Assembly (NCBI GenBank): GCA_018266475.1
Contig: JAFEAI010000268.1
Location: 1-32,725 of the forward strand
Origin: Bacteroidota bacterium
GTDB lineage: Bacteria; Bacteroidota; Bacteroidia; Flavobacteriales_F; PHOS-HE28
DNA: 32,725 bases
Direction: 5' to 3'
Position numbers and translations under genes: made by a program
Shown: positions 3,001-32,725 of the stretch, in pieces
How the letters are laid out: each line of letters begins with the position of its first letter
Position numbering within the stretch: position 1 is the stretch's first letter
Notes under the pieces: generated by a model
What the model was told of the DNA's origin: nothing
Seen by the model: the letters and a program-made list of their open reading frames with translations, nothing else
Databases searched by the model: none

Positions 3001-6000
3001 GCGGGCAACGGCCTGTGCAGCCCGGTGAGCAGCCAAGTACACTACGCCATCACGCCCGCGCCCACGGTGAATGCGGGCGCCGACCAGTCCCTGTGCGGCA
3101 ACAACGGCACGGCCACGCTCAACGCGGCCATCACCGTGGCCACCGGCGTGCAATGGAGCGGCGGCAGCGGCCTGTACAGCCCCGGCAGCACCGCGCAGAA
3201 CATCACCTACACGCCCTCGCCCATCGAGGTGGCCAACGGTTATGTAGTGCTCACCGCCACCACCACCGGCAACGGCAACTGCAGCGCCGTGGCGGACCAG
3301 GTGCAGATCACCTACACCCCGGCCCCCATGGCCAATGCCGGGCCCAACCAATCCAAGAGCCAGAACAACCCCGCCACCACCCTGGCCGGCTCCTACACCA
3401 TCGCCAGCGGAATTGCCTGGAGCGGCGGCGCGGGCACATACACCCCCAACAACACCACTGCCAATGCGGTGTACATGCCCACGGCGGCGGAAGTGGCAGC
3501 GGGCAGCGTGACCCTCACCCTGACCACCACCGGCAACGGCTCCTGCGCGCCCGCCAGCAGCCAGATGACCATCACCTTCACCGATGCCCCCACTGCAAAC
3601 GCCGGCCCGGACCAAACGACCTGCGCCAACAACGCCAGCATCTTGCTGAACGGCAGCGTCACCATCGCCACCGGCGGCATCTGGAGCGGCGGCACCGGCA
3701 CCTACAACCCGAACAACACCTCGCTGCACACCACCTACACGCCCAGCGCAGTGGAGATCGCCGCCGGCAGCGTGACGCTGACGCTCACCACCGTGGGCAA
3801 CGGCAACAGCAACCCGGTGAGCGACCAAGTGCTCATCACCATTGCCCCTTCCCCCGTGGTACACCCGGGCAGCGCGATCACCATTTGCGCCAACCAGCCG
3901 GTTGCGCAACTGGCCGGCGTGGTGAACAACGCCACCGGCGGCGTGTGGAGCGGCGGCGCGGGCTCCTTCAACCCGAACGCCAACAACCTCAACGCCACCT
4001 ATACGCCCTCGCTGGGCGAGATCGCTGCGGGGACGGTAACGCTCACCCTGACCTCCACGGGCAACGGCACCTGCATGGCCGTAAGCGCCCAACGCAGCAT
4101 CACCATCGCCCCGGCGCCGGTGGTGGATGCAGGCATTGACCGCACCGTATGCACCAACAACGCCAGCGTGCAGCTTACCGGCTCCGTGGCCAACGCCACC
4201 GGCGGCATCTGGAGCGGCGGCACCGGCGGATTCTCGCCGAGCATCAATGCGCTCAACGCCGTGTACACGCCCAGCGCCACCGAGCTGGCCAACGGCGCTG
4301 TAACCCTCACGCTCACCAGCACCGGCAACGGCAGCTGCCTGCAGGTAAGCGACCAGATGACCATCTTCTTCTCGCAGGCCCCGGTGGTAAGCGCAGGCGC
4401 CAACCGCACCGTGTGCGCCAATGACCCCACGGTAGTCCTGAACGGGTCCGTCACCATCGCCGGCGGCGGCACCTGGAGCGGCGGCACGGGCACCTTCACC
4501 CCGAATGCCAGCACCCTGAACGCAACCTACCACCCCAGCGCCGCGGAAGTGGCCTTGGGCACGGCGACCCTCACACTGACCTCCACGCAAAACGGCCTGT
4601 GCAACGCGGTGAGCAGCCAGATGACCATCACCATCATCGCCTCCCCGGTGGCGGATGCGGGCAACGACCTCTTCGTATGCTCGAACAACCCGCAGGTGCA
4701 ATTAGGCGGAGCGGTGAACGGCGCCGGTGGCGGCCAATGGAGCGGCGGCGCGGGCACCTACAGCCCGTCCATCGCCACGCTGAACGCCATCTACACGCCC
4801 ACGGCAGCTGAAGTGGCAGCAGGCACATTGACGCTTACCCTGACCACCATCGGCAACGGCAACTGCGTGCCGGTAAGCGACCAGGTGTTGATCACCTTCA
4901 CGGCATCGCCCACGGCGAACGCCGGGTTGGACGGCGTGCGCTGCGCGAACAATGCCGCAGTGCAGCTCAACGGCAGCGTAACCGTGGCCAACGGCGGCGC
5001 ATGGAGCGGCGGCGGCGGCACCTTCAGCCCCAACGCAAACAGCCTGAACGCGGTGTACACCCCCTCGCAGGGTGAGATCGCCGCAGGAAGCGCAACCTTG
5101 ACATTGACCACCACCGGCAACAACGGCTGCACGGCGGTGACCGACCAGGTGGCCTTCAGCTTCACGCCCGCACCGGTGGTAAATGCCGGGTCCGCCATCA
5201 ACGTTTGCGCCAACAACGCCGCAGTCCACCTCAACGGCAGCGTGACCGTGGCATCGGGCGCGCTGTGGAGCGGCGGGTCCGGCACCTGGTCCCCGAACAA
5301 CAGTACGCTCAACGCGGTGTACACGCCCACTGCGACGGAGATCGCCGCAGGTACGGTAACGCTCACCCTCACCAGCGTGGGCAACGGCCAATGCAACGCG
5401 GTAAGCAGCCAGGTAACGGTAACGATCCTTCCCGCCCCCGTGGTGAACGCCGGAACGCCGCTGCAATCCTGCGCGAACAATCCGGGCGTGCAGCTCAATG
5501 GATCGGTGCAGCATGCCGCAGGCGGCGCGTGGAGCGGCGCAGGCACGTTCACGCCCAACGCCAATGCACTGAATGCGACCTACATGCCCACTGCGGCCGA
5601 AGTGGCCGCAGGCATGGCCATCGTTACCCTCACCAGCACCGGCAATGGCCTGTGCAATGCGATAAGCAGCCAAGTGGCCATCACCATCACCTCCGCGCCG
5701 GTGGTGGAGGCCGGCGCCGCGCAAACGCTGTGCGCCAACAACGCGGCCGCGCAATTGGCCGGGCAGGTAACGAACGCGGCCGGTGGCAAATGGACCGGCG
5801 GCGCAGGCAGCTTCAGCCCCAATTCCACCACGCTCAATGCCGTGTACACCCCGAGCGCGGCGGAAGTAGCCGCCGGCAGCCTCTGGCTGTACCTCACCTC
5901 CACCGGCAACGGAGGCTGCATTGCCTCCATGGATTCGGTGCGGCTGAACTTCACCCCGGCGCCCACGGTGGACGCCGGCCTGGACGCCCACGTATGCGCC

Positions 6001-9000
6001 AACAGCGCGGCCGTGCAACTGGCGGGCGCCATCACGGTGGCCAGCGGTGCCACTTGGAGCGGCGGGGCCGGCAGCTTCAGCCCCAATGCCAATGCCCTCA
6101 ACGCCATCTACACCCCCAGCGCGCTTGAGCTGGCTGCCGGCCAGATCAAGCTGATGCTGACCACCACGGGCAACGGGAATTGCTTGGCGGTGAAGGACAG
6201 CCTGAAGATCATTGTGGACCCCGTGCCCGTGGTGAACGCCGGTCCGGACCAGCAGATCTGCGCCAACAACCCCGTGCTCAACCTGAACGGTTTCGTGGGC
6301 AATGCCCCGGGCGGCCAGTGGACCGGCGGCGCGGGCACCTACTTCCCCAACAGCACCTCCATGGCGGTGCAGTACACGCCCACCCAGGCGGAGATCGCGG
6401 CAGGCTCCATCACCTTCACGCTCACCTCCACGGGCACCGTGATCTGCGCGGCAGTGGCCGACCAGATCGTGGTACACTTCACCAGCGCCCCCGTGGTGAA
6501 CGCCGGGGCGGACCTGATGATCTGCGCCAACAACGCCGCCGTGCAGCTCACCGGCGAGGTGGAAAATGCCAGCGGCGGCAAATGGACCGGCGGCAACGGA
6601 ACCTACGCGCCCTCCAACACGGTGCTCAGCCCCGTATACACGCCCACGGCAGCGGAGATCGCATCCGGCGGAATGAACCTTTACCTCACCAGTACGGGCA
6701 ACGGCAACTGCATTGCCGTAAAGGACACCGTACACATCACCTTCACCCCGGCGCCCACCGTGGAAGCGGGAGCTGACATCAGCGTTTGCGCAAACAACCC
6801 GGTGGTGGTCCTGAACGGCAGCAGCACCGTGGCAAGCGGGGTGCTGTGGAGCGGCGGCTTGGGCACCTATGCGCCCAATGCGCAAGCCGCAAACGCCCAA
6901 TACACGCTTTCGCCCTTTGAACTGCAGGCCGGCACCGTGCTGCTGAAACTGACCACCACCGGCAACGGCAACTGCCTTGCGGTGAAGGACAGCGTGGCGA
7001 TCACGGTGACGCCCGCACCCCTTGTGAACGCGGGCCCCAACATCACCACCTGCTCCAGCGCCCTGCATGTACCGCTGGCAGGCACGGTGTCCGGCGGCGC
7101 CACCACGGGCACATGGAGCAGCTCCGGCACGGGCAACTTCTTCCCCAGCGCCAACGACCTGAACGCCACCTACAACGCCAGCGCGGCTGATTCGCTCAAC
7201 GGCACGGTGAACCTTACGCTTACCGCCACCAACTACGGCCTGTGCAGCGCGGTGAGCAGCATGATGACGCTGACCATCCTGCCCAACGCGGTGGCCAACG
7301 CAGGTCCCGACCAGAACATCTGCGCCAGCATGCCCACCGTGCAGCTGAACGGCACCATTGCGGGCAACGCCACCCAGGGGCACTGGACCACCACCGGCGC
7401 AGGCACGTTCCTGCCCAACGCCAATGCCGCGAACGCGGTGTACCAAGTGGCGCCGGGTGATGCCGCCGCCGGAACGCTCACCTTCACGTGGAGCGTGAAC
7501 AGTTGTGACAACGCCATGGACCAGATGGTGGTGGCCATCACCCCGGTCTCCACGGCCAATGCCGGCAGTGACCAGGTGGTCTGCTTCGGCAACCTCAACG
7601 TGGTGATCAACGGCACCGTGGGCGGGGCCTCCGGCACCGGCACCTGGAGCACGCTGGGCACCGGCACCTTCGCCAACCCGGCAAGCGCGCTGGCCAACAT
7701 CTATCGTGCCAGCGCCCAGGATTCCTTGGCGCACGGCGTTTCCCTGGTGCTGTCCGCCACCAACACCGGCGCGTGCCCGGCGGCCTCCGACACCATGCAC
7801 ATCACCATACAGCCTGCGGGCACGGTAAGCGCCGGCCCCAACCTGAGCTTCTGCGCGAACAATGCCACCGTACAGCTTGCGGGCACCTTGGCCGGCGATG
7901 CCACGCAGGTGCAATGGAGCACCTCCGGCACGGGTTCCTTCTACCCGAGCAGCACGGTGCTCACGCCCACCTACGTGCCCAGCGCCATCGACACGGCGAT
8001 CGGCTCGCTGACCCTGACGCTGAGCGCGGTGAACACCTGCAACAACGCCAGCGCCGCCATGACGCTGACCCTGACACCCGCGCCGTACGTGGACGCAGGG
8101 CCCGACCAGACCTACTGCGACCAAGTGACGCAGTTCAACCTGAGCGGCACCATCAGCGGGGTAACTACCGTGGGCCACTGGGCCACCACGGGCACCGGCA
8201 CCATTGCCAATGCGGGCGCGCTGAACACCACCTACACGGCCAGCGCCGCCGACGTGGCCGCAGGGCACATCACCTTCACGCTCACCTCGCTGAACAACGG
8301 CAACTGCGGCCCGGTAAGCGACCAGATGACCATCTACCTCACCAACGGCATCATCGTCAGTGCGGGGCCTGATCAGAGCGTGTGCGTTACCTCCGACCAT
8401 GCCAACCTGCAGGGAACCGTTCAGAACGGATCGCCCTCGGGCACATGGACCACCACCGGCACGGGCACCTTCCAGCCCAGCGCCAACGTGCTGAACGCAC
8501 ACTACTACTTCTCGCCCGCCGACGTGGCCAACGGTGCCGTGGTGCTCACCTTCACGGCCACCAACACCGGCACCTGCCCCAGCGGAAGCGACCAGATGAC
8601 GCTGACCTTCGGGCACTCCAGCTACGCTTATGCCGGCGTTGACCAGGTGCTCTGCGCCAACGCGCCGATCGCCCACCTGGCCGGCAACTACAGCGGTGGT
8701 GCGCAGGGTGCAACATGGTCCACTTCCGGCACCGGCTCCTTCAGCAACAGCACAAGCCCCACGGCCACCTACACGCTGAGCAATGCGGACATTGCCGCAG
8801 GGGCGGTGCAGCTCACCCTCACCACCCTCACCAATGGCAGCTGCGCCGTTGCTTCCAGCACCGTGCTGCTCACGGTGAACGCACTGCCCGCCATCACCGC
8901 AGGCAGCAACATCATGGCCTGCACCGCAGCACCGATCCAACTTGCGGCCAACGCGGCCAATGCGCCCGGCGGCACCTGGACCACCTCCGGCACCGGCACC

Positions 9001-10212
9001 TTCTTTGATGCCAATGCCCTGGCCACCCTGTACTACCCCAGCGCCGCCGACAGCACTGCGGGCCACGTAACCCTTACCGTGACCACCACGGGCACCTCGC
9101 CGTGCAGCGCGGTTTCCGACCACCTGACCATCACCTTCGGCGGCGGCCTGGCCGCGCAGGCCGGCCAGGATGTCACCGCGTGCAGCACCAGCCCGAACAT
9201 CGCGCTGAACGGCACCGTGGCAGGAACCAGCACGGGAACATGGACCACGAGCGGCACGGGCTCCTTCAGCCCCAGCGCAACGGCCCTCAACGCCACCTAC
9301 ATCCCGGGTGCGGCCGACTTCGTGATCGGCAACATCAACCTGGTGCTGAGCACCACCAACAACGCGGGCTGCCCGGCGGGCCGCGACACCCTGGTGGTAA
9401 GCTACCACGTGCCGCCCACGGTGAATGCGGGCGCCGACCTGCTGCTGTGCGACGGCATCGCGCCGGTGCAGCTCAACGGCAGCGCGCACAACCACGGCAG
9501 CGTGCATTGGATCACTGCCGGCACGGGCACCTTCAGCCCTGATGCCTCCGCGCTGAACGCCACCTACACGCCCACGGCGCAGGACAGCATCAACGGAGGC
9601 GTGTACCTGGTGCTCACGGCATACGGCACGGGCACCTGCGGAAATGCATCCGACTCGCTCTTCATCGGCGTGGGCCCCACGCGCATCGCACATGCCGGCA
9701 ACGACATGGACCTGTGCGCCAACGGCGGGCCGATCACCCTGGCGGGCAGCATCACCGGCGTGGCCGGCGGCACCTGGAGCACCAACGGCACGGGCACCTT
9801 CACGCCGAACGCCTCCGCGCTGAACGCCACCTACGTGCCCAGCGCACCCGACCTGGTGTTCCAGCAGCTGCAGTTCGTGCTCACCACCACCGGCAACATG
9901 GGCTGCACACCGCACAGCGACACCATGCGGGTGGCCATGCACCTGCCGCCCGCAGTGAATGCCGGGGCCGACATCACCACGTGCGACGCGTCCGCCCCCG
10001 TACAGCTCGGCGGCACCTTCACCGGCGCTGCGGGCATCCAGTGGACCACCCTGGGCAGCGGCAGCTTTGCACCCAACGCCTCCACCGCCAATGCCGCATA
10101 CCTGCCCAGCGCGGCGGACAGCGCCATGCAGCATGTGCGCCTGGTGCTCACCACCACCGGCAGCCCCTTCTGCCCGGCTGCAAGCGATACCGTGGCCATC
10201 TCCTTCGTGAAC
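1..10212 (+). repeat. Coding tandem array of ~264-bp Ig-like units
   Basis: About 38 full units plus a leading partial one. Unit starts fall on an exact 264-bp grid from nt 163 to nt 5443. Unit 21 lacks one codon (WSGAG instead of WSGGAG), shifting the grid by 3 bp without breaking the frame. From unit 27 (near nt 7024) units become 88-90 residues and more divergent, with the core changing from WSGG to W(T/S)TSGTG. Nearly all units keep two cysteines. The spacing is continuous and coding. Confidence 0.95.
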
Positions 10213-10977
10213 CCGCTCCACCCGGCCTTCACGGCAGGCAATGCCTGCACCGGCCTGCCCACGGCCTTCACCGATGCCAGCACTTCCGCAGGGGCCGCCA
10301 TCATTGGCCGCGCATGGGACCTCGGCAATGGCACCACCGCCACCGGCCAGCAGGCAAGCACCACCTATGCCGCAGCGGGCCAGTACACCGTAACGCTCAC
10401 CGTATATGCGCAAAACGGCTGCAGCGCCACGGCCAGCCAAACCGTGGAAGTGATGAACTCGCCGGTGGCCGGCTTCTCCATCAGCGGGGATGCCTTCACC
10501 GAAGAACCCGTGGTCATCACCGACAACTCCTTCGGAGGCAGCCACTGGCAGTACAATTTTGGCGACGGCACCGGCTCGCTCATGCAGCAGCCGAACCACA
10601 TCTATGCCGCCGCGGGGCAATACATCATCGTGCAAACGGTGAGCAATGCCGCCGGGTGCAGCGCCCGCGATTCCATCCTGGTCTCCATCAAGGAGAACAA
10701 GATCGTGCCGCCCAAGATGCCTGATGCCTTCAGCCCGAACGGGGACGGCGTGAACGACATCTTCTATGTGCGCGGCGGGCCCTTCAAGACCCTGCACCTG
10801 CAGATCTACAACGGCTGGGGCGAAAAGATCTTCGAGACCGAAGACCCCGAATTCGGATGGGACGGCACCTATAAGGGCAAGCCCGAGACCAACGGCGTGT
10901 ACGTGTACTCCGTAACGGCCACCTCCGTGGACGGCCAGGAATACGACCGCTCCGGCAAAGTCACCCTGGTGCGCTAA
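1..10977 (+). CDS. Giant Ig-like repeat adhesin with PKD domains and T9SS type-B sorting domain (5' partial)
   Basis: The frame is open from base 1, so the start lies upstream; 3658 residues are visible. About 38 complete units of roughly 88 residues run to about residue 3404. Each has an N-A-G...C-A-N-N opening, a W-S-G-G or W-T-T-S-G-T-G core, a Y-T-P-S/T-A-x-E strand, an L-T-L-T-T-T-G-N-G-x-C strand and a P-A-P linker. Two PKD domains follow (about 3405-3568; the second contains FGDGTG). The last ~88 residues are a gliding-motility/type-B sorting domain: AFSPNGDGVNDIF, YNGWGEKIF, GWDGTYKG and a terminal VTLVR. Proteins of this type are exported by the type IX system and act as surface adhesins. 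The PorP/SprF gene 14 nt downstream fits an SprB-SprF pair. The ligand is unknown. The signal peptide and total length are outside the window. Confidence 0.93.
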   Translation, partial: GTFSPSPNNVNATYTPTATEIANGSVTLTLTTTGNNTCTAVSDNMAITFTTAPTANAGAAVTRCANNASVVLGGAVTLATGGVWSGGAGTFTPNNTTLNATYTPTAAEIASGTLTLTLTTTGNGGCNPATDTKVINFTPAPTVSAGSNGSVCANNAAITLNGSVTVATGATWSGGTGTYSPNANTLNAVYTPSAAERTAGTVTLTLTSTGNGLCNAVSSQVTYTITPAPTVNAGANQTLCANNPVATLHGSYTVATGATWSGGNGTYNPSANYVGATYTPTATEIANGSVTLTLTTTGNNNCTATSSAVILQFTPAPAVNAGADATLCANNATVALNGTVAVATGGVWSGGAGSFTPNNTTLNATYTPTPAELAGGTLTLTLTSTGNNNCVAVHDDKVVNFTPAPIVSAGPNGSVCANAPAITLAGSVTGATGGIWSGGNGTYTPNNTTLNAVYTPTAAERAAGTVTLTLTSAGNGNCTAVSSHVTYAITPAPTVHAGANQSLCANNPAATLNGSYTVATGAVWSGGNGTFSPSANNVNATYTPTAAEIASGSVTLTLTTAGNNNCVPVSANVVLTFTPAPTANAGAAASVCMNNANVALNGSVTVATGGIWSGGAGSFTPNNTSLNATYAPTPAELAAGTLTLTLTTTGNGNCIAATSTKQITFTPAPTVSTGPNGTVCANNSAITLAGVVTGATGGTWSGGTGTYSPNANTLNAVYTPSAAERTAGSVTLTLTSTGNGNCTAVSKQVTYTITPAPTANAGADRVLCANNPVTTLAGAFTVATGGVWSGGNGTFSPGTSNMSAIYTPTAAEVSNGLVLLTLTTTGNGNCNAATDQVELHFTAAPTANAGPNATVCANNAAVALGGSVTIATGGTWSGGAGTFTPNANTLNATYAPSAADLAAGQVTLTLTTTGNGNCMPATSTKTIFYTPAPIVSAGSNGSVCANAAAINLSGTVTGAAGGVWSGGNGTFSPNSITLNATYTPTAAEIAAGGVTLTLTSAGNGLCSPVSSQVHYAITPAPTVNAGADQSLCGNNGTATLNAAITVATGVQWSGGSGLYSPGSTAQNITYTPSPIEVANGYVVLTATTTGNGNCSAVADQVQITYTPAPMANAGPNQSKSQNNPATTLAGSYTIASGIAWSGGAGTYTPNNTTANAVYMPTAAEVAAGSVTLTLTTTGNGSCAPASSQMTITFTDAPTANAGPDQTTCANNASILLNGSVTIATGGIWSGGTGTYNPNNTSLHTTYTPSAVEIAAGSVTLTLTTVGNGNSNPVSDQVLITIAPSPVVHPGSAITICANQPVAQLAGVVNNATGGVWSGGAGSFNPNANNLNATYTPSLGEIAAGTVTLTLTSTGNGTCMAVSAQRSITIAPAPVVDAGIDRTVCTNNASVQLTGSVANATGGIWSGGTGGFSPSINALNAVYTPSATELANGAVTLTLTSTGNGSCLQVSDQMTIFFSQAPVVSAGANRTVCANDPTVVLNGSVTIAGGGTWSGGTGTFTPNASTLNATYHPSAAEVALGTATLTLTSTQNGLCNAVSSQMTITIIASPVADAGNDLFVCSNNPQVQLGGAVNGAGGGQWSGGAGTYSPSIATLNAIYTPTAAEVAAGTLTLTLTTIGNGNCVPVSDQVLITFTASPTANAGLDGVRCANNAAVQLNGSVTVANGGAWSGGGGTFSPNANSLNAVYTPSQGEIAAGSATLTLTTTGNNGCTAVTDQVAFSFTPAPVVNAGSAINVCANNAAVHLNGSVTVASGALWSGGSGTWSPNNSTLNAVYTPTATEIAAGTVTLTLTSVGNGQCNAVSSQVTVTILPAPVVNAGTPLQSCANNPGVQLNGSVQHAAGGAWSGAGTFTPNANALNATYMPTAAEVAAGMAIVTLTSTGNGLCNAISSQVAITITSAPVVEAGAAQTLCANNAAAQLAGQVTNAAGGKWTGGAGSFSPNSTTLNAVYTPSAAEVAAGSLWLYLTSTGNGGCIASMDSVRLNFTPAPTVDAGLDAHVCANSAAVQLAGAITVASGATWSGGAGSFSPNANALNAIYTPSALELAAGQIKLMLTTTGNGNCLAVKDSLKIIVDPVPVVNAGPDQQICANNPVLNLNGFVGNAPGGQWTGGAGTYFPNSTSMAVQYTPTQAEIAAGSITFTLTSTGTVICAAVADQIVVHFTSAPVVNAGADLMICANNAAVQLTGEVENASGGKWTGGNGTYAPSNTVLSPVYTPTAAEIASGGMNLYLTSTGNGNCIAVKDTVHITFTPAPTVEAGADISVCANNPVVVLNGSSTVASGVLWSGGLGTYAPNAQAANAQYTLSPFELQAGTVLLKLTTTGNGNCLAVKDSVAITVTPAPLVNAGPNITTCSSALHVPLAGTVSGGATTGTWSSSGTGNFFPSANDLNATYNASAADSLNGTVNLTLTATNYGLCSAVSSMMTLTILPNAVANAGPDQNICASMPTVQLNGTIAGNATQGHWTTTGAGTFLPNANAANAVYQVAPGDAAAGTLTFTWSVNSCDNAMDQMVVAITPVSTANAGSDQVVCFGNLNVVINGTVGGASGTGTWSTLGTGTFANPASALANIYRASAQDSLAHGVSLVLSATNTGACPAASDTMHITIQPAGTVSAGPNLSFCANNATVQLAGTLAGDATQVQWSTSGTGSFYPSSTVLTPTYVPSAIDTAIGSLTLTLSAVNTCNNASAAMTLTLTPAPYVDAGPDQTYCDQVTQFNLSGTISGVTTVGHWATTGTGTIANAGALNTTYTASAADVAAGHITFTLTSLNNGNCGPVSDQMTIYLTNGIIVSAGPDQSVCVTSDHANLQGTVQNGSPSGTWTTTGTGTFQPSANVLNAHYYFSPADVANGAVVLTFTATNTGTCPSGSDQMTLTFGHSSYAYAGVDQVLCANAPIAHLAGNYSGGAQGATWSTSGTGSFSNSTSPTATYTLSNADIAAGAVQLTLTTLTNGSCAVASSTVLLTVNALPAITAGSNIMACTAAPIQLAANAANAPGGTWTTSGTGTFFDANALATLYYPSAADSTAGHVTLTVTTTGTSPCSAVSDHLTITFGGGLAAQAGQDVTACSTSPNIALNGTVAGTSTGTWTTSGTGSFSPSATALNATYIPGAADFVIGNINLVLSTTNNAGCPAGRDTLVVSYHVPPTVNAGADLLLCDGIAPVQLNGSAHNHGSVHWITAGTGTFSPDASALNATYTPTAQDSINGGVYLVLTAYGTGTCGNASDSLFIGVGPTRIAHAGNDMDLCANGGPITLAGSITGVAGGTWSTNGTGTFTPNASALNATYVPSAPDLVFQQLQFVLTTTGNMGCTPHSDTMRVAMHLPPAVNAGADITTCDASAPVQLGGTFTGAAGIQWTTLGSGSFAPNASTANAAYLPSAADSAMQHVRLVLTTTGSPFCPAASDTVAISFVNPLHPAFTAGNACTGLPTAFTDASTSAGAAIIGRAWDLGNGTTATGQQASTTYAAAGQYTVTLTVYAQNGCSATASQTVEVMNSPVAGFSISGDAFTEEPVVITDNSFGGSHWQYNFGDGTGSLMQQPNHIYAAAGQYIIVQTVSNAAGCSARDSILVSIKENKIVPPKMPDAFSPNGDGVNDIFYVRGGPFKTLHLQIYNGWGEKIFETEDPEFGWDGTYKGKPETNGVYVYSVTATSVDGQEYDRSGKVTLVR
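163..3330 (+). repeat. Higher-order repeat: four A-B-C triplets of 792 bp
   Basis: Units recur as A-B-C triplets. The diagnostic B unit (V-S-A-G-x-N-G-S/T-V-C, usually with an A-A-E-R strand) starts at nt 427, 1219, 2011 and 2803, exactly 792 bp apart. C units (N-P-x-x-T-L-x-G-S-Y/F-T type) start at 691, 1483, 2275 and 3067, and A units at 163, 955, 1747 and 2539. The partial unit at the window start is C-type, so the array probably continues leftwards. The pattern stops at nt 3331. Confidence 0.85.
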
Positions 10978-24738: not shown

Positions 24739-24801
24739 CAAGAAATGGACCGGGCCGGGCAACTTTCGCCGCCCCGGTTGCATCATACCCCTTGCAAGGC
24801 C

Positions 24802-25347
24802 ATGACGGATGAGCAATTGGTAGCGGGATGCCTTCGGCACGACCCGATCGCCCAACAAGCGCTCTACCAGGTCTATGCACGGAAGATGATGAGCATCTGC
24901 ATGCGTTATGCCTCAGGCCGGGACCAGGCGCAGGACATCCTGCAGGACGGCTTTGTGAAGGTGTTCCAGAAGATGGACCACTACAGGGGCGAAGGGCCGC
25001 TGGGCGGCTGGATCGCGCGCACCATGGTGAACACGGCACTGGACCAGATCCGCCGCGACAAGCCTTACGCGCACAGTTTGGACCTCACCGATGCGGAGCA
25101 CCTGCACGCGGTGGACGAGGAAGTGCTGGCGGCCATGTCCGCCGACGAACTGCTGGCCCTGATACAGGCCCTGCCGGCGGGCTACCGCACCGTGTTCAAC
25201 CTGTTTGCCATTGAAGGCTATTCGCACAAGGACATCGCGGACATGCTGGGCATCTCGGAGAACACCTCCAAATCACAATTCATGAAGGCGCGGGCCTACC
25301 TGCGCAAGCTGCTGCCCAAGGGAACGGCTGAAATGCACGGATACTGA
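24802..25347 (+). CDS. ECF-type RNA polymerase sigma factor
   Basis: 181 residues. Region 2 (about 15-85) includes A-L-Y-Q-V-Y-A-R-K-M-M-S-I-C, D-I-L-Q-D-G-F-V-K-V-F and L-G-G-W-I-A-R-T-M-V-N-T-A-L-D. Region 4 (about 115-170) has L-P-A-G-Y-R-T-V-F-N-L and the helix-turn-helix Y-S-H-K-D-I-A-D-M-L-G-I-S-E-N-T-S-K-S-Q. This two-domain form is typical of extracytoplasmic-function sigma factors. The next gene begins 2 nt after its stop and has anti-sigma-like features, so the pair probably works as a sigma/anti-sigma switch. The targets may be the downstream surface-protein genes; that is inference. Confidence 0.93.
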   Translation: MTDEQLVAGCLRHDPIAQQALYQVYARKMMSICMRYASGRDQAQDILQDGFVKVFQKMDHYRGEGPLGGWIARTMVNTALDQIRRDKPYAHSLDLTDAEHLHAVDEEVLAAMSADELLALIQALPAGYRTVFNLFAIEGYSHKDIADMLGISENTSKSQFMKARAYLRKLLPKGTAEMHGY

Positions 25348-25349
25348 CC

Positions 25350-26429
25350 ATGAGCGACCCGATCAAGAACCTGTTCCAGGAGCGCCTTGCAGGCCATGAG
25401 GCGGATGTGCCCGCCGGGGCATGGGAGCACATCAGCGGGCTGCTGGCATCGGCTGCCGCCGGGGCATCGCTGCGCGAAAGCCTCCAGGGCAAGTTCCAGG
25501 CCCACGAGGCGCCCGTGGACCCTTCCGCATGGGCGCACATCAGCGGCAGGCTCGGGCATGCCGGCAGCGGCACGGCGGCAGGCCACGGCATCCGCTGGGG
25601 ATGGATCGCCACCGGCGCAGCCGCCGTGGTGGCCACCACGGTGCTGCTGCTGCTGAACCTGCAAACCGGTCCGGCCGCACAAGTGTTGCCTGAACAACAC
25701 CGCACGGAGCAGGTCATGCCGGAGCAACCGGCTACTGGTGCCGCCGCCACCGAAAATGCGCAGGTGGAGATGCCTCCCGTTCACCCAATGCCGCAAGTTG
25801 CTGCAAAACACACGGCGGAACCCCGGGTTTCTGCGCCAAGGGCCGTGGTGGAACCGGCACGTGAAACGGCCATGCCGGAACAGCAGCGTGAAGCTGCGCC
25901 TGCCATCCCCGTACCTGCCGCAGCTGCGGAAACCGCCCTTGCGAGCCAGCCGGATGGCCCTGTGCCCGCCAGCGGCACAGCCCCAAGTGTGCCTGCCACC
26001 ACGCAGGAAACCCGGCCAACCGCCGCAACTGGCGCCGTGCAACCCGCACCCGAGCATGGCCCCAAGCACGATGCCGCCAAGGCAGGCGCCGAATCTTCCC
26101 CTTCGGACCCCGCAACCGCCGCAGCAGACCCCTTCCACCGCAACATGGACAGCGGCATCATGATCCCCAACGCCTTCAGCCCGCAAGGCGACGGAATAAA
26201 CGACGTGCTGGAAGTAGTGGCCACCGGGTATGAACGGGCCGACGTGCGCGTGATTTCCGTGCAGACCGGCATGCTCGTGTTCCAAACAAACGACCTGGCC
26301 AACCGGTGGGACGGCCGCCTGGCCAACGGCAGCAATGCCGAGGAAGGGTATTACCGCTGCGTGGTGATCCTCACGGACAAGGACGGGCGCCAGCGCGTAC
26401 AGTCGGAAGTGGTGCGGTTGTTCCGCTAG
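25350..26429 (+). CDS. Anti-sigma-like membrane protein with tethered T9SS type-B domain
   Basis: 359 residues. The predicted cytoplasmic N-terminus (1-82) contains a duplicated motif: F-Q-E-R-L-A-G-H-E-A-D-V-P-A-G-A-W-E-H-I (9-28) and L-Q-G-K-F-Q-A-H-E-A-P-V-D-P-S-A-W-A-H-I (45-64). This pattern is seen in proteins encoded directly after ECF sigma genes in Bacteroidota. One membrane helix (about 84-104) follows, then a Pro/Ala/Glu-rich spacer (105-269). A type-B sorting domain (270-359) ends the protein: P-N-A-F-S-P-Q-G-D-G-I-N-D-V, N-R-W-D-G-R and terminal V-V-R-L-F-R. There is no N-terminal signal peptide, so the sorting domain is held in the periplasm by the inner membrane rather than released as cargo. 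No named anti-sigma family is certain. Confidence 0.8.
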   Translation: MSDPIKNLFQERLAGHEADVPAGAWEHISGLLASAAAGASLRESLQGKFQAHEAPVDPSAWAHISGRLGHAGSGTAAGHGIRWGWIATGAAAVVATTVLLLLNLQTGPAAQVLPEQHRTEQVMPEQPATGAAATENAQVEMPPVHPMPQVAAKHTAEPRVSAPRAVVEPARETAMPEQQREAAPAIPVPAAAAETALASQPDGPVPASGTAPSVPATTQETRPTAATGAVQPAPEHGPKHDAAKAGAESSPSDPATAAADPFHRNMDSGIMIPNAFSPQGDGINDVLEVVATGYERADVRVISVQTGMLVFQTNDLANRWDGRLANGSNAEEGYYRCVVILTDKDGRQRVQSEVVRLFR

Positions 26430-26440
26430 AACCGGTAAAA

Positions 26441-29392
26441 ATGAAAATGAAGAACAAACTTTCCCTCGTGCTGCTTGCGGCCCTGATCGGCACCGCCCCC
26501 GCGCTGCTGGCACAAACCGTACACTTCAACAACGTGGAGGAATACGATGCGTGGAAGGCGCAGCAGGCTGCGCAAACCCCGGCCACGCCGCCGGCGCACC
26601 CCGCCCCGCCCGAGGGCGCCCCGGGCACCGAACGCGACGGCGTGGCCTCCTGCAACTGCTGGATCACGCCCAATGCCAGCTACACCACCATCAACAACAA
26701 CACGCAGTGGAACGCCAGCGGGTATGGCAACGGGGATGACGGCTCCTACGGCCCGATCAACCTCCCGTTCAGCTTCTATCTCTACGGCCAGTACTACACC
26801 CAGGCCTACATCAACATCAACGGCAACATTTCCTTCGGCACGTACAACGGCACGTACAGTTCTTCCTCATTCCCCATGACCGGCCCCGCCCTGGTGGCTC
26901 CTTTCTGGGCCGACGTGGACCTGCGGGGCGGCACCGTTAACCAGAACAAGGTGCAATACAAGGTAACGCCCACGGCCCTGTATGTGAACTGGACGAACGT
27001 GGGCTACTACAGCCAACAGACGGACAAGCTGAACTCCTTCCAGGTGATCATCACCAATGGGGCCGACCCGGTGATCTCCGGCACGGCCAACGTGTCCTTC
27101 TGCTACGGCACCATGCAATGGACCACCGGCAGCGCCTCGGGCGGCACCAACGGCTTCGGTGGCACCGCCGCCACCGTGGGCGCCAACAAGGGCGACGGGG
27201 TGAACTACATCCAGTTCGGCCGCTTTGACCATGCCGGCACCAACTACAACGGGCCCTTCGGCGCACCCGGCGGCGTGGGTTGGCTCACGGGCAAAAGCTT
27301 CAACTTTTCCACCGACATCACCACGGGCAACATTGCCCCGGTGGTGGCCGGCCAATCGGTGTGCGACACCCTTGAGATCTGCACCGGCGTGCCCACGCAG
27401 CTCATCGTGGATTTCCTTTCACCCGAGCCCAACCAGATCACCACAGCCACCTCCACGGCACCCACACTGAGCAACTACACCATCGTCTCCAACACGTCCG
27501 GCAATACCGCATCCATCACCACCCAGGTGCTGGCCGCACTGGCCGACACCGGCTACCATGTGGTAAACTTCTCCGGAACGGACAATGGCACCCCGGTGCA
27601 AACCTCCATCCTCAACATCGTCATCCATGTGATCGCTTCCCCGCAGCTGGTCTCCAACACCTTGGCGGTATGCGACAATGCCGCACCGGTGGACATGCTC
27701 ACGGTATTGGGCGGCAATGCGCCCGCCGGCGGCACCTGGACCGCGCCGGACGGCACGGGCCATACCGCGTTCTTCAACCCGCTCGCCGATGCCCCGGGCG
27801 TATATTCCTACGCCGTTTCCGCCGGTGGCCAGTGTGAGGCCACAGGCACCGCCACCATGTCCATCGTGCAGCACGTCAATGCCGGAAATGACCTTGCGCT
27901 CGCCTATTGCTCCTCGGACGCTCCGGACCCGCTCTTCCCGCACCTCACCGGCAACCCGGAGGCCGGTGGTGCGTGGAGCACCCCCGCAGGAGCAGCGTTC
28001 AACGGTACCGTGGAGCCCGCCACATTCACCTCGGGGATCTATACCTACTTGGTGGCCGGTACGGGGCCTTGCCCCAATGACACCGCATTCATCACCTTAG
28101 CCATACCCCAGGCGGTGCATGCGGGCACGGACGGCTCCGCCACCCTGTGCCACGATGCCGCCCCCTTCAGCATGCGCAGCAAGCTGGGCGGCGCCCCGGA
28201 TGCCACGGGGCAATGGACTTCGGGCAATGGCGATGCCGCGCCCGACCTCTTCAACCCCGCCACGGACACTGCGGGCACCTATACCTACACCGTGCAGGCC
28301 ATTGCACCATGCCCCGGCCAAAGCGCGCAGCTGATCATCCATGTGGACCCCCTGCCGAATGCGGGCTTGGACAGCGCCCTGGTGATCTGCGCCAACGGCA
28401 ACCCCACCCCGCTCTTCCCCTTGCTGGGCGGATCTCCCGATGCTGGCGGGCAATGGCTCAAGCCGGACGGAGGCCCCCTGCCGGACGGAATCCTGCTGCC
28501 GGCAACCAACCTGCCCGGCGACTACCGCTACGTGGCCATCGGCCCGGGCACCTGCGCACACCGGACTGACACCGCCCTGGTGCAGGTGCAGATCAACCCT
28601 GTGCCGGTGATCACCTTCACCGCCGCCCCCGACAGCGGTTGCGCCCCCTTGGAAGTAACCTTCACCAACACCACGGACTCCGTGTACATCGGCAACTTCT
28701 GCCAATGGGACCCGGGTGATGGCACCGGCTATGTGGAAACCTGCGGAACCTTCACCCACACGTACACCAATGCGGGCTGGTACCATGTGAAGCTGAAGGT
28801 AACCACGCCCCAAGGCTGCACGGACCAGTTGATCGTGCCCGGCGCGGTGCTGGTGGACCCTGCGCCAAAGGCCACCTTCGTATTCACCCCCAACCCGGGC
28901 ACCGCCGGCAACAGCAAGCTGGTCTTCTCCGCCACCGACCCCCATGCCGTGGACTTCCTGTGGACCTTCCCGAACAGCTCGGTGCAGACCGGCCAGCAGG
29001 CCACTTACCTCTTCCCGGACGATAACAACGCCAAGTACCAGGTGTGCCTGAACGTGGCCGACCGCTACGGCTGCCAGGACACCTTCTGCGACAGCGTGCC
29101 CATCGTGGTGCCCAACCTGTGGGTGCCCACTGCCTTCACCCCGGACGGCAACGGCATCAACGACGTGTTCAAGCCCGTGATGATGGGCCTGGACCTCAGC
29201 GTGTACCACATGATGGTGTTCAACCGCTGGGGCGGGCTCGTGTTCGAAAGCACGGACCCTGAAAAGGGCTGGGACGGCACCCGCGGAGGCAGCCAAGTGC
29301 CTGAGGGCGCGTACATCTGGCGCATCACCTACAGGCCCATGCACACGGCCGACCTGCAGGAGAAATTCGGCACCATCACCCTGCAACGCTGA
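26441..29392 (+). CDS. Secreted nidogen-domain protein A with Ig-like, PKD and T9SS type-B domains
   Basis: 983 residues from ATG 26441 (M-K-M-K-N-K-L), with a signal peptide ending A-L-L-A-Q. A nidogen-like domain (about 80-292) includes A-Y-I-N-I-N-G-N-I-S-F-G, V-A-P-F-W-A-D-V-D-L-R-G-G and Y-V-N-W-T-N-V-G-Y-Y. A linking beta region (300-397) and four Ig-like units with two conserved cysteines follow (about 400-477, 478-556, 558-636, 639-718); these resemble units of the giant adhesin. Then come two PKD domains (721-806, 808-890) and the type-B sorting domain (891-983; A-F-T-P-D-G-N-G-I-N-D-V-F, F-N-R-W-G-G-L-V-F). It is predicted to be a T9SS-exported surface protein. It lies 11 nt after the anti-sigma-like gene and is paralogous to the next gene. 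Confidence 0.92.
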   Translation: MKMKNKLSLVLLAALIGTAPALLAQTVHFNNVEEYDAWKAQQAAQTPATPPAHPAPPEGAPGTERDGVASCNCWITPNASYTTINNNTQWNASGYGNGDDGSYGPINLPFSFYLYGQYYTQAYININGNISFGTYNGTYSSSSFPMTGPALVAPFWADVDLRGGTVNQNKVQYKVTPTALYVNWTNVGYYSQQTDKLNSFQVIITNGADPVISGTANVSFCYGTMQWTTGSASGGTNGFGGTAATVGANKGDGVNYIQFGRFDHAGTNYNGPFGAPGGVGWLTGKSFNFSTDITTGNIAPVVAGQSVCDTLEICTGVPTQLIVDFLSPEPNQITTATSTAPTLSNYTIVSNTSGNTASITTQVLAALADTGYHVVNFSGTDNGTPVQTSILNIVIHVIASPQLVSNTLAVCDNAAPVDMLTVLGGNAPAGGTWTAPDGTGHTAFFNPLADAPGVYSYAVSAGGQCEATGTATMSIVQHVNAGNDLALAYCSSDAPDPLFPHLTGNPEAGGAWSTPAGAAFNGTVEPATFTSGIYTYLVAGTGPCPNDTAFITLAIPQAVHAGTDGSATLCHDAAPFSMRSKLGGAPDATGQWTSGNGDAAPDLFNPATDTAGTYTYTVQAIAPCPGQSAQLIIHVDPLPNAGLDSALVICANGNPTPLFPLLGGSPDAGGQWLKPDGGPLPDGILLPATNLPGDYRYVAIGPGTCAHRTDTALVQVQINPVPVITFTAAPDSGCAPLEVTFTNTTDSVYIGNFCQWDPGDGTGYVETCGTFTHTYTNAGWYHVKLKVTTPQGCTDQLIVPGAVLVDPAPKATFVFTPNPGTAGNSKLVFSATDPHAVDFLWTFPNSSVQTGQQATYLFPDDNNAKYQVCLNVADRYGCQDTFCDSVPIVVPNLWVPTAFTPDGNGINDVFKPVMMGLDLSVYHMMVFNRWGGLVFESTDPEKGWDGTRGGSQVPEGAYIWRITYRPMHTADLQEKFGTITLQR

Positions 29393-29499: not shown

Positions 29500-31719
29500 A
29501 TGATGAAAAAGCTACTTCCCGCCGCGATCCTGTACTGCACCGCCGTTAGCCTGGTGCAGGCACAGGGCACCAACCTCACCTGGCAGCAATATGATGCCAT
29601 GAAGGCCGCAGGCACGCTGCCTTCGGAATTCCACCTTACCTACCCTGCGGCGGCGCCCGTGCCCGTGCATGCGGCAAGCATGGCCAAGGGAGGAGGAGGC
29701 ACCGGCGGTGAATGCAATTGCTGGAAAACCCCCGACGGCAACTACACCACCATCGACAACGCCACCCAGTGGAACGCTTCGGGCTTCGGCAACGGTGACG
29801 ACGGGTCCTACGGTCCGGTGAGCCTGCCGTTCAATTTCAACCTGTACGGCAACGTGTACAACACGGCGTACATCAACATCAACGGCAACATCTCCTTCGG
29901 CGCACCGATCTCCACCTACAGTTCCAATGCCTTTCCCGGTAACGGCAATGTGATGGTGGCACCTTTTTGGGCGGACGTGGACCTGCGCGGCGGCGCGGCC
30001 GGGCAGAACGTGGTGCAGTACAAACTGACCAGCAATGCGCTGTACGTGAACTGGACCAATGTGGGCTACTACAACTCCAGGACCGATAAACTGGCCACCT
30101 TCCAGGTGATCATCAGCGACGGCACCAACACGGATGTGGGCGTGGGCAGCAACGTGTCCTTCTGCTACAAGGAGATGGGCTGGACCACCGGGCAGGCCTC
30201 CTGCACGGGCAGCCCCAGTTGCACATACGGGAACCAAACCTACTCCTGCAGCAATGCCGGCAATGCAGGCTACGGCTTCTGCGGCGTGCCCGCCACCGTG
30301 GGCGCCAACCGCGGCAATGGCGTGGACTACATCCAGTTCGGCCGCTTCAACCACCCCGGCACCGACTACAACGGGCCCTTCGGCGATGCCAGCGGCGTGG
30401 GCTGGCTGGACAACAAGAACTTCGTGTTCAACACGGCCGTGAGCACGCAGAACATTCCGCCCATCGCCAGCAGCACCTCCCTGTGCGACACCGTGGACGT
30501 GTGCGTGCATGAGCTGGTGAACTTGGACGTGAACTTCCTCTCCCCGGAGCCCGGGCAGATGACCTCCGCCGGCTATACCATCACCCCGCCGCTGAACGCC
30601 GTCATCACCGAAACCAACACCAGCCCGGCGAACACCGTTAACCTGCACCTGCAGTTCGTGCCCACGGTGGCCGACACGGCCAACGGGGGCATCCACGTGA
30701 TCACCTACACGGCCACCGATGACGGCGCACCCCCGCTCACCTCCACCGTGTCCACGGTGATCCGTGTGTTCTACGTGGCAGCGCCCCCGCCCGTGATCAC
30801 CGGCGATTCCATCGCCTGCGCCGACCAGGGCGTGGTGATCACCGCCTCCGGCGGCTTCCAGCACTACCAATGGTCCAACGGCTGGAACGGCGAGACCGTA
30901 CTGGTGGGGCCCGGCACCTATTTCGTGCAGGCCAGCACCGGTGCTTGCGTCATGGTTTCCAACTCCATCACCGTTACCGAGGCGCCCGTACCCGCCCCGG
31001 TGATCAGCGGCGTGCTCTTCAACTGCGGCGGCGAACCTGCCACCCTTACCGCCAACCAGCCCAACGGGCAGCCCTACACCAGCTACAACTGGAGCAATGG
31101 CAGCCATGACCCCTCCATCAGCGTAGGCACCGGCTCCTACTCGGTGACCGTGGGCAATGCGTTCGGCTGCCAAGGCACCTCCGCCCAGGTGAACGTGCTG
31201 AGCGCGAACGCCCCCACCGCCTTCTTCAGCGGCAACCCCAACGGCAACGTGTTCCCCGGCACCACCGTGGTGTACACCGACCACTCCAACGGCAACGGTG
31301 CCACCATCACCTCCTGGGCCTGGAATGCGGACACCCTGGGCTCCGGCAATGCAACCACCTTCGCCCCCACCTTCCACACACCGGGAATCTACCCCATCAC
31401 CCTTACGGTAACCACCTCCGACGGCTGCACGCACACCTACACCTACAACCAAGTGGTGGTGCCCACCGAGATCGTGGTGCCCAACGTGTTCACCCCCAAC
31501 AACGACGGCAAGAACGACGCCTTGGTCTTTGAGGGCGCGCAGTTCTACCCCAACACCTCCCTGAAGGTCTTCAACCGCTGGGGCAATGAGGTGTACTCCA
31601 ACGCCAACTACAAGAACACCTGGAAGCCCTCCAAGGACATCCCCGAGGGCACCTACTTCTTCATCCTCCGCCTGGAAACCGGCAAGGAATACACCGGCAA
31701 CGTGACGCTGCTGCGCTGA
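29500..31719 (+). CDS. Secreted nidogen-domain protein B with PKD and T9SS type-B domains
   Basis: 739 residues from ATG 29500 (a second ATG is next to it); the longer frame from 29455 would add a charged stretch before the signal peptide. The signal peptide ends L-V-Q-A-Q. The nidogen-like domain (about 80-312) closely follows protein A, sharing A-Y-I-N-I-N-G-N-I-S-F-G, A-P-F-W-A-D-V-D-L-R-G-G and L-Y-V-N-W-T-N-V-G-Y-Y. It carries an extra Cys-rich loop (about 235-262) absent from A. After a shared beta region (320-424) come two Ig-like parts (430-493, 498-567), a PKD domain (572-653) and the type-B domain (657-739; V-F-T-P-N-N-D-G-K-N-D-A, F-N-R-W-G-N-E-V-Y). It is a likely surface or adhesion protein from tandem duplication followed by divergence. 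Confidence 0.92.
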   Translation: MMKKLLPAAILYCTAVSLVQAQGTNLTWQQYDAMKAAGTLPSEFHLTYPAAAPVPVHAASMAKGGGGTGGECNCWKTPDGNYTTIDNATQWNASGFGNGDDGSYGPVSLPFNFNLYGNVYNTAYININGNISFGAPISTYSSNAFPGNGNVMVAPFWADVDLRGGAAGQNVVQYKLTSNALYVNWTNVGYYNSRTDKLATFQVIISDGTNTDVGVGSNVSFCYKEMGWTTGQASCTGSPSCTYGNQTYSCSNAGNAGYGFCGVPATVGANRGNGVDYIQFGRFNHPGTDYNGPFGDASGVGWLDNKNFVFNTAVSTQNIPPIASSTSLCDTVDVCVHELVNLDVNFLSPEPGQMTSAGYTITPPLNAVITETNTSPANTVNLHLQFVPTVADTANGGIHVITYTATDDGAPPLTSTVSTVIRVFYVAAPPPVITGDSIACADQGVVITASGGFQHYQWSNGWNGETVLVGPGTYFVQASTGACVMVSNSITVTEAPVPAPVISGVLFNCGGEPATLTANQPNGQPYTSYNWSNGSHDPSISVGTGSYSVTVGNAFGCQGTSAQVNVLSANAPTAFFSGNPNGNVFPGTTVVYTDHSNGNGATITSWAWNADTLGSGNATTFAPTFHTPGIYPITLTVTTSDGCTHTYTYNQVVVPTEIVVPNVFTPNNDGKNDALVFEGAQFYPNTSLKVFNRWGNEVYSNANYKNTWKPSKDIPEGTYFFILRLETGKEYTGNVTLLR

Positions 31720-31865: not shown

Positions 31866-31872
31866 CATCCCC

Positions 31873-32725
31873 ATGAAGGTAATCGACCACCTGCGCAACA
31901 GCCAGCGCACCTTGTTCTCCTTTGAGATCCTTCCGCCGCTAAAGGGCAGGGACATCCGTTCCATCTATGCGGGCATCGACCCCTTGATGGAGTTCAAGCC
32001 CAGCTTCATCAACGTGACGTACCACCGCGAAGAAGTGATCTACAAGGAGCGCGGCCAAGGGCTGCTGCAAAAAATCCGCCTGCGCAAGCGGCCCGGCACT
32101 GTGGGCATCTGCGCCATGATAAAGGCCAAGTACGACGTGGACACCGTGCCCCACCTGATCTGCGGGGGCTTCAGCCGCGAGGAAACCGAGGATGCCCTCA
32201 TCGAGCTCAACTTCCTGGGAATCGACAACGTGCTGGCCCTGCGCGGCGATCCCGAAAAAAGTGAGAGCCACTTCATACCCGAGCGCGACGGCCATGCCCA
32301 TGCCGAGGAGCTGGTCCGGCAGATCGCCGGGCTGAACCGCGGCAAGTACCTCTACGAGGAGGAACAGGAGGCCGCCCCCACCAGCCTGTGCATCGGTGCG
32401 GCCTGCTATCCGGAGAAGCACCCCGAGGCCCTGAACCTGGCCACGGACATGGCCTACCTGAAGCGCAAGGTGGATGCCGGCGCCGAATACCTGGTAACCC
32501 AGATGTTCTTCGACAACCAGCGCTACTTCAGTTTCGTGGAGCGCTGCCGCGCCGAAGGGATCCATGTGCCCGTCATTCCCGGCCTGAAGCCGTTGACCAC
32601 CTTGCGCCACGCGGCATTCCTTCCCAAGACCTTCCACATCGACCTGCCGGACGACTATGCCCGCGAACTGGTGAAATGCACCAACGACGACCAGGTGAAG
32701 GCCTTGGGGATCGAATGGACGGTGC
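31873..32725 (+). CDS. metF: Methylenetetrahydrofolate reductase (3' partial)
   Basis: 284 residues are visible and the frame stays open at the right edge, so perhaps 30-40 are missing. The TIM-barrel signatures are F-S-F-E-I-L-P-P (catalytic-type Glu18), F-I-N-V-T-Y-H, L-A-L-R-G-D-P and E-Y-L-V-T-Q-M-F-F-D-N, then P-V-I-P-G-L-K-P. MetF is a cytoplasmic FAD enzyme that reduces 5,10-methylene-THF to 5-methyl-THF for methionine synthesis. The start at 31873 gives M-K-V-I-D-H-L, a usual family N-terminus. It has its own promoter region after a terminator and is not linked in function to the surface genes upstream. Confidence 0.95.
   Translation, partial: MKVIDHLRNSQRTLFSFEILPPLKGRDIRSIYAGIDPLMEFKPSFINVTYHREEVIYKERGQGLLQKIRLRKRPGTVGICAMIKAKYDVDTVPHLICGGFSREETEDALIELNFLGIDNVLALRGDPEKSESHFIPERDGHAHAEELVRQIAGLNRGKYLYEEEQEAAPTSLCIGAACYPEKHPEALNLATDMAYLKRKVDAGAEYLVTQMFFDNQRYFSFVERCRAEGIHVPVIPGLKPLTTLRHAAFLPKTFHIDLPDDYARELVKCTNDDQVKALGIEWTV

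Follow-up and report, generated by a model that had tools for sequence, protein, structure and literature searches.

A predicted anti-sigma factor family of Bacteroidia with a type-B-like C-terminal tip that lacks the NRWG motif

Dma proteins, PorA and type-B signals as the closest comparisons

The closest known kinds of protein to the one described here are the Dma anti-sigma factors of Bacteroides and PorA of Porphyromonas gingivalis. Dma (dual membrane-spanning anti-sigma) proteins combine an N-terminal anti-sigma domain, one helix, a long disordered tether and a C-terminal outer-membrane beta-barrel, and their genes adjoin an ECF sigma gene; NigD1 is a target of Dma1 (PMC13088901). PorA is a type IX C-terminal-domain protein that acts upstream of the ECF sigma factor SigP. 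It is a secreted surface protein without an anti-sigma domain, signals via the two-component system PorXY and has the T9SS machinery as its target (PMC7712824). On the export side, type-B signals are received by PorP/SprF proteins, which act as shuttles at the outer membrane (PMC12618676, PMC9143113). For the signal of SprB from Flavobacterium johnsoniae, each of five conserved type-B motifs was required for secretion or shuttle recognition (PMC12618676). Beyond PorXY-SigP, little is understood of how Bacteroidota adjust the production of large secreted adhesins to what the type IX system can export.

The locus analysed here lies in a 32,725-nucleotide stretch of DNA from a Bacteroidota bacterium (hereafter the window) and encodes an ECF sigma factor followed by a predicted anti-sigma protein. 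The latter shares with Dma the N-terminal domain, the single helix, the long disordered tether and the adjacent sigma gene, but its tip is a CHU_C beta-sandwich instead of a barrel and the genes downstream encode type IX cargo. As the defining barrel is absent, the protein is not classed as a Dma member despite the same working layout, whereas barrel-tipped relatives found with the same N-terminal profile do match the published Dma layout (PMC13088901). With type-B cargo such as SprB (PMC12618676), the protein has in common the CHU_C fold and the majority of conserved positions, namely F[TS]P, GDG.ND, W.G, G.Y and final L.R; it differs from such cargo in lacking a signal peptide, in being anchored by an inner-membrane helix, in missing the NRWG motif and in scoring below the TIGR04131 cut-off. 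The likeness to PorA lies in the regulatory order, in which a protein that bears a type IX C-terminal domain acts above an ECF sigma factor. PorP/SprF shuttles (PF11751) are otherwise free-standing outer-membrane proteins, yet their barrel forms the tip of two relatives; the window protein itself has no barrel. Our search of the open-access literature found no description of this combination of an anti-sigma protein with a type-B tip.

Architecture of the locus and linkage to an ECF sigma factor

The sigma gene (24802-25347, plus strand) encodes 181 aa and matches Pfam Sigma70_r2 (2.4e-14) and Sigma70_r4_2 (6.5e-16), both above cut-off, as well as the superfamily model TIGR02937 (89.5 bits); none of the NCBIfam subgroup models reached its cut-off. 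After a gap of 2 nt follows the predicted anti-sigma gene (25350-26429, plus strand; 359 aa). Its product begins, on the presumed cytoplasmic side, with two copies of the motif HE..V....W..I. The first (25377-25442, plus strand; approximately residues 10-31, RLAGHEADVPAGAWEHI) has H16, E17 and W25 conserved in an alignment of 30 relatives, and in the second (25485-25550, plus strand; approximately residues 46-67, KFQAHEAPVDPSAWAHI) F49, H52, E53 and W61 are invariant. Within the genus two or three copies occur, whereas outside the genus usually one is recognised, and it is the second copy together with the helix that these more distant relatives match.

The transmembrane helix (25605-25661, plus strand; residues 86-104) is the single strong hydrophobic segment, with a mean Kyte-Doolittle value of 2.06, and a hydrophobic N-terminus that could serve as signal peptide is absent from the window protein and from all 108 members checked. 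The following tether (25662-26159, plus strand; residues 105-270) contains 27 Pro and 38 Ala among its 166 residues and is predicted to be disordered by composition and by AlphaFold2 (pLDDT mostly 44-58). In the same model, the N-terminal helices come out poorly and the membrane helix (91-102) at low confidence, while the tip forms a beta-sandwich with pLDDT of ~94-98. Tethers of members ending in a type IX C-terminal domain (CTD) measure 130-311 residues (median 179). Pro/Ala richness was rejected as a special feature, since outside the genus Pro and Ala amount to 14% and Asn, Ser, Thr and Gln to 34% of tether residues; composition probably follows GC content. Inner-membrane tethering of the window protein is well supported. 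Its charge distribution, judged by the positive-inside rule, leaves the topology undecided; however, the barrel tips of relatives must sit in the outer membrane, which means that the C-terminus must exit the cytoplasm and thus supports an N-in/C-out orientation.

Within the genus, 39 of 45 genomes encode full-length relatives (~26-47% identity, open frames of 350-432 codons), so the arrangement in the window is not due to chance. A scan of named genomes with the window protein as single query gave no match; with the clade alignment as query, relatives were recovered from six metagenome-assembled genomes of Flavobacteriales. Across the class, 395 genomes were sampled with a profile restricted to the N-terminus and helix (A2); it matched in 139 of them, corresponding to 80 of 196 genera. 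We examined 131 loci, comprising 36 from within the genus and the 95 best-scoring ones from outside, and in every case an ECF sigma gene lies directly upstream (phmmer E of ~1e-32 or better against the window sigma factor), its end within ~75 nt of the anti-sigma start. As the sigma factor was not part of the search, this linkage provides independent support for a sigma/anti-sigma pair. Moreover, the NCBIfam model NF052375, which describes an anti-sigma factor, is matched by five members, and from the genomic evidence an anti-sigma role of the second gene is very probable. SprA is present in 385 of the 395 genomes and is thus so common that its co-occurrence with the family tests little; none of the 10 genomes without SprA had an A2 match. 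The original prediction of a sigma/anti-sigma pairing is supported by the 131 loci. The order that it described, with a duplicated motif, one helix and a long Pro/Ala spacer, was confirmed in the window protein, and its arguments that the protein is tethered to the membrane without a signal peptide and is not ordinary cargo are likewise supported.

Some loci depart from the common pattern. In one family (L079, L082, L086, L087 and L110), the CTD-tipped anti-sigma gene is immediately followed by a second, divergent sigma-like gene. Four proteins of 246-301 aa (L101, L114, L144 and L146) adjoin an ECF sigma gene and have neither a CHU_C domain nor a recognised barrel as tip.

The type-B-like tip and its replacements

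The tip of the window protein (26160-26426, plus strand; residues 271-359) matches CHU_C (PF13585) with 43.1 bits against a cut-off of 27 over residues 271-345. TIGR04131 yields 23.6 bits against a cut-off of 35, covering model positions 2-66 of 85, and the position of NRWG is occupied by VQTGMLVF. We compared tethered tips with a set of 71 cargo domains, 32 of them from the window genome (including both cargo proteins of the operon) and 39 from two other genomes. From this set we omitted two TIGR04131 hits, namely L214, whose match is no clear type-B domain, and L199, a second tethered anti-sigma protein of the same genome. The strict NRWG motif is present in 66 of the 71 cargo domains but in only one of 108 tethered tips (Fisher p = 9e-42, a value that overstates independence owing to kinship among rows). 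Because the cargo domains were collected with TIGR04131, a model that itself contains NRWG, the comparison carries some bias, although this is limited as matches down to ~21 bits were listed. At the individual positions, cargo domains have R in 97% and W in 92% of cases, whereas the tethered tips have R in 14% and no common W. Both groups preserve F[TS]P, the GDG.ND loop, W.G, G.Y and the terminal L.R to a similar degree. Among the 35 TIGR04131 matches of the window genome, the two tethered domains have the two lowest scores. A second sigma/anti-sigma pair of this genome is located at L240:1543-2835 (contig C209, ~53542-54834), with an ECF sigma gene just upstream; here, too, the type-B-like tip of the anti-sigma protein lacks NRWG, and the protein has two PKD-like stretches.

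From its order and strand character, we infer that NRWG corresponds to motif B of the SprB study. Given that every conserved motif of the SprB signal was required (PMC12618676), its absence makes direct competition with cargo for SprF-like shuttles less likely; the loss argues that the tip is neither exported nor a simple shuttle competitor. The original prediction had described a complete type-B domain and, as one option, competition with cargo. A complete domain is not supported, since TIGR04131 stays below cut-off and NRWG is missing nearly family-wide, and competition appears less likely. Nor does the tip most resemble the domains of the cargo encoded in the operon. Its best matches in the genome are other cargo domains, and we consequently rejected a cognate pairing of tip and operon cargo. 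In structure comparisons of the tip, Foldseek hits were limited to latent PorU and to generic folds of the Fn3/Ig-like kind; no sequence relative with a solved structure was found.

The tip can be replaced. Among 127 members, 104 carry CHU_C, 12 an OMP_b-brl_2 barrel and two a PorP/SprF barrel (E<=1e-22); FlgD_ig is also matched by 13 members, and 40 have extra PKD domains. The two PorP/SprF-tipped anti-sigma proteins are L097:199-2124(-) and L117:1-2016(-) (PF11751, E ~1e-23). NigD-like lipoproteins are encoded downstream of two barrel-tipped loci. Each of these three kinds of tip would be expected to sit in the outer membrane or close to it.

Cargo genes, promoter and possible role of the tip

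Two large cargo genes follow the anti-sigma gene in the window. The first product (26441-29392, plus strand) is a secreted protein with NIDO, PKD and genuine type-B domains, the second (29503-31719, plus strand) a secreted protein with NIDO, PKD-like and genuine type-B domains; both have signal peptides, and their type-B domains score 47.5 and 53.5 bits with TIGR04131, in line with the original prediction. The metF gene for methylenetetrahydrofolate reductase (31870-32724, plus strand) lies 3' of them. At the other end, a frame of more than 3600 codons (28-10977, plus strand), cut by the window start, ends in PKD and CHU_C domains; it represents a giant type IX cargo whose interior contains GGCAACGGCACCT-like repeats.

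Elsewhere, we inspected 20 distant CTD-tipped loci that had been selected because the product of the next gene looked secreted; in 18 of them, this gene encodes a large secreted protein that carries a type-B domain or a closely similar one. At other loci, what follows is often unrelated or hard to assign, so that cargo linkage is frequent but not universal. The loci of five Flavobacteriales relatives (13 kb each) show the anti-sigma gene followed by genes for a large secreted protein and a second one. As in the window, metF follows cargo in L262-L264, and the order anti-sigma, cargo, metF is found in L248, L255, L256 and L259. Recurrence of metF after cargo in the window and in other families suggests that the locus is ancient.

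A predicted ECF-type promoter, GGCAAC-N16-GCATCA (24758-24785, plus strand), precedes the sigma gene, which is probably autoregulated. The pattern is found with fixed spacing upstream of sigma in all 26 aligned family loci of the genus, and this site is its sole exact match within the window. In 44 genomes, a slightly longer pattern gave 92 matches as compared to 22 for the reversed control. The window genome contains six exact sites: besides the sigma promoter there is one on contig C189, and the remaining four are internal to long reading frames. A broad regulon based on the exact motif was rejected, as these four sites and nearly all checked non-sigma sites in relatives fall within long frames. 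The second intergenic copy (L272; contig C189, 22038-22066, minus strand) lies 109 nt ahead of the start codon (ATG) for a protein with a signal peptide; judged by position and length, this frame appears to be the one that has a type-B domain of 68 bits at its end. With this single further intergenic copy, the predicted regulon is small, comprising the operon and one additional cargo gene. The conserved promoter, its copy on C189 and the 18 of 20 chosen distant loci thus agree with the earlier proposal that the genes regulated by the sigma factor are probably type-B cargo.

What the tip senses can be weighed against this background. It might be an Ig-like domain of type-B descent that responds to a cue other than export, for instance envelope stress, a glycan or some feature of peptidoglycan. 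A trans-envelope anti-sigma factor of this kind would fit the lost NRWG motif, the generic Foldseek hits and the FlgD_ig matches and extra PKD domains, which are possible ligand binders. However, both the operon and the second promoter site suggest a link to type-B cargo, and a PorP/SprF barrel stands in the tip's place in two genomes; we consider such a cue possible but, on balance, unlikely. Another possibility is a strict gauge, in which the tip competes with cargo for the same SprF-like shuttle and free shuttle capacity sets sigma activity. Most type-B features are indeed retained, cargo is encoded in the same operon and the predicted regulon consists of type-B cargo. Against this stand the loss of NRWG, given that every conserved motif of the SprB signal was needed for secretion or shuttle recognition (PMC12618676), the lack of any special resemblance between the tip and its own operon's cargo signals, and the lack of a shuttle gene adjoining the anti-sigma gene in the window; direct competition is improbable.

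Alternatively, the tip could be pulled through the type IX translocon and be surface-exposed while the N-terminus stays in the cytoplasm, such that the protein spans both membranes like the barrel-tipped Dma proteins. A tether of 166 residues suffices to cross the periplasm, and the barrel-tipped relatives must reach the outer membrane. Yet loss of NRWG predicts no export, as judged from the SprB work (PMC12618676), and a tethered substrate would block the translocon, which renders this arrangement very unlikely. Finally, the protein could be membrane-anchored and unrelated in role to the adjacent sigma factor, the two genes being neighbours by descent only. Preservation of the pair at all 131 loci over very wide divergence, the five NF052375 matches and the same module in Dma-type loci make this hardly credible.

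We favour, with a probability of roughly 0.5, a trans-envelope anti-sigma factor of Dma-like organisation whose tip reads the state of type IX export and which controls an operon of type-B cargo. The architecture, the sigma linkage, the alternative tips, the motif loss, the cargo linkage and the conserved promoter are established as features of the genomes compared. Descent from an export signal, the swap for a shuttle-class barrel in two genomes and the probable control of cargo together lead us to infer that the tip reports type IX export; sensing of export capacity is a possible form of this. In the proposed mechanism, the cytoplasmic N-terminus would bind the adjacent ECF sigma factor and keep it inactive at the inner membrane, while the single helix and flexible tether would place the beta-sandwich in the periplasm. 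The tip, presumably descended from a type-B export signal and probably prevented from export by the missing NRWG, may read an outer-membrane state tied to type IX export, for instance occupancy of shuttle, translocon or cargo. A change at the outer membrane would then free the sigma factor, whether through proteolysis or a pulling force, to turn on its own operon, type-B cargo genes included. An analogy is provided by RseA and sigma-E of Escherichia coli, where C-terminal signals of unassembled envelope proteins govern the release of the ECF sigma factor; to our knowledge, that anti-sigma factor itself carries no cargo-like signal.

For annotation, these data imply that a CHU_C match lacking NRWG probably marks a regulator and is best left out of counts of secreted cargo. 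In evolution, it appears that an outer-membrane barrel, or even a member of the PorP/SprF shuttle class, can take the place of the sensor tip, and the Dma idea would extend from gut Bacteroides to environmental lineages that possess the T9SS. A common sigma/anti-sigma module with a disarmed export signal as sensor makes the question of how cargo supply is matched to export capacity directly testable. Tentatively, the family may represent a class-wide system in which a non-exportable type-B mimic probes type IX export, so that cargo would be made only when an outer-membrane exit is available. The arrangement, which recurs across Bacteroidia, suggests that cells tune the production of exported surface proteins by sensing at the outer envelope.
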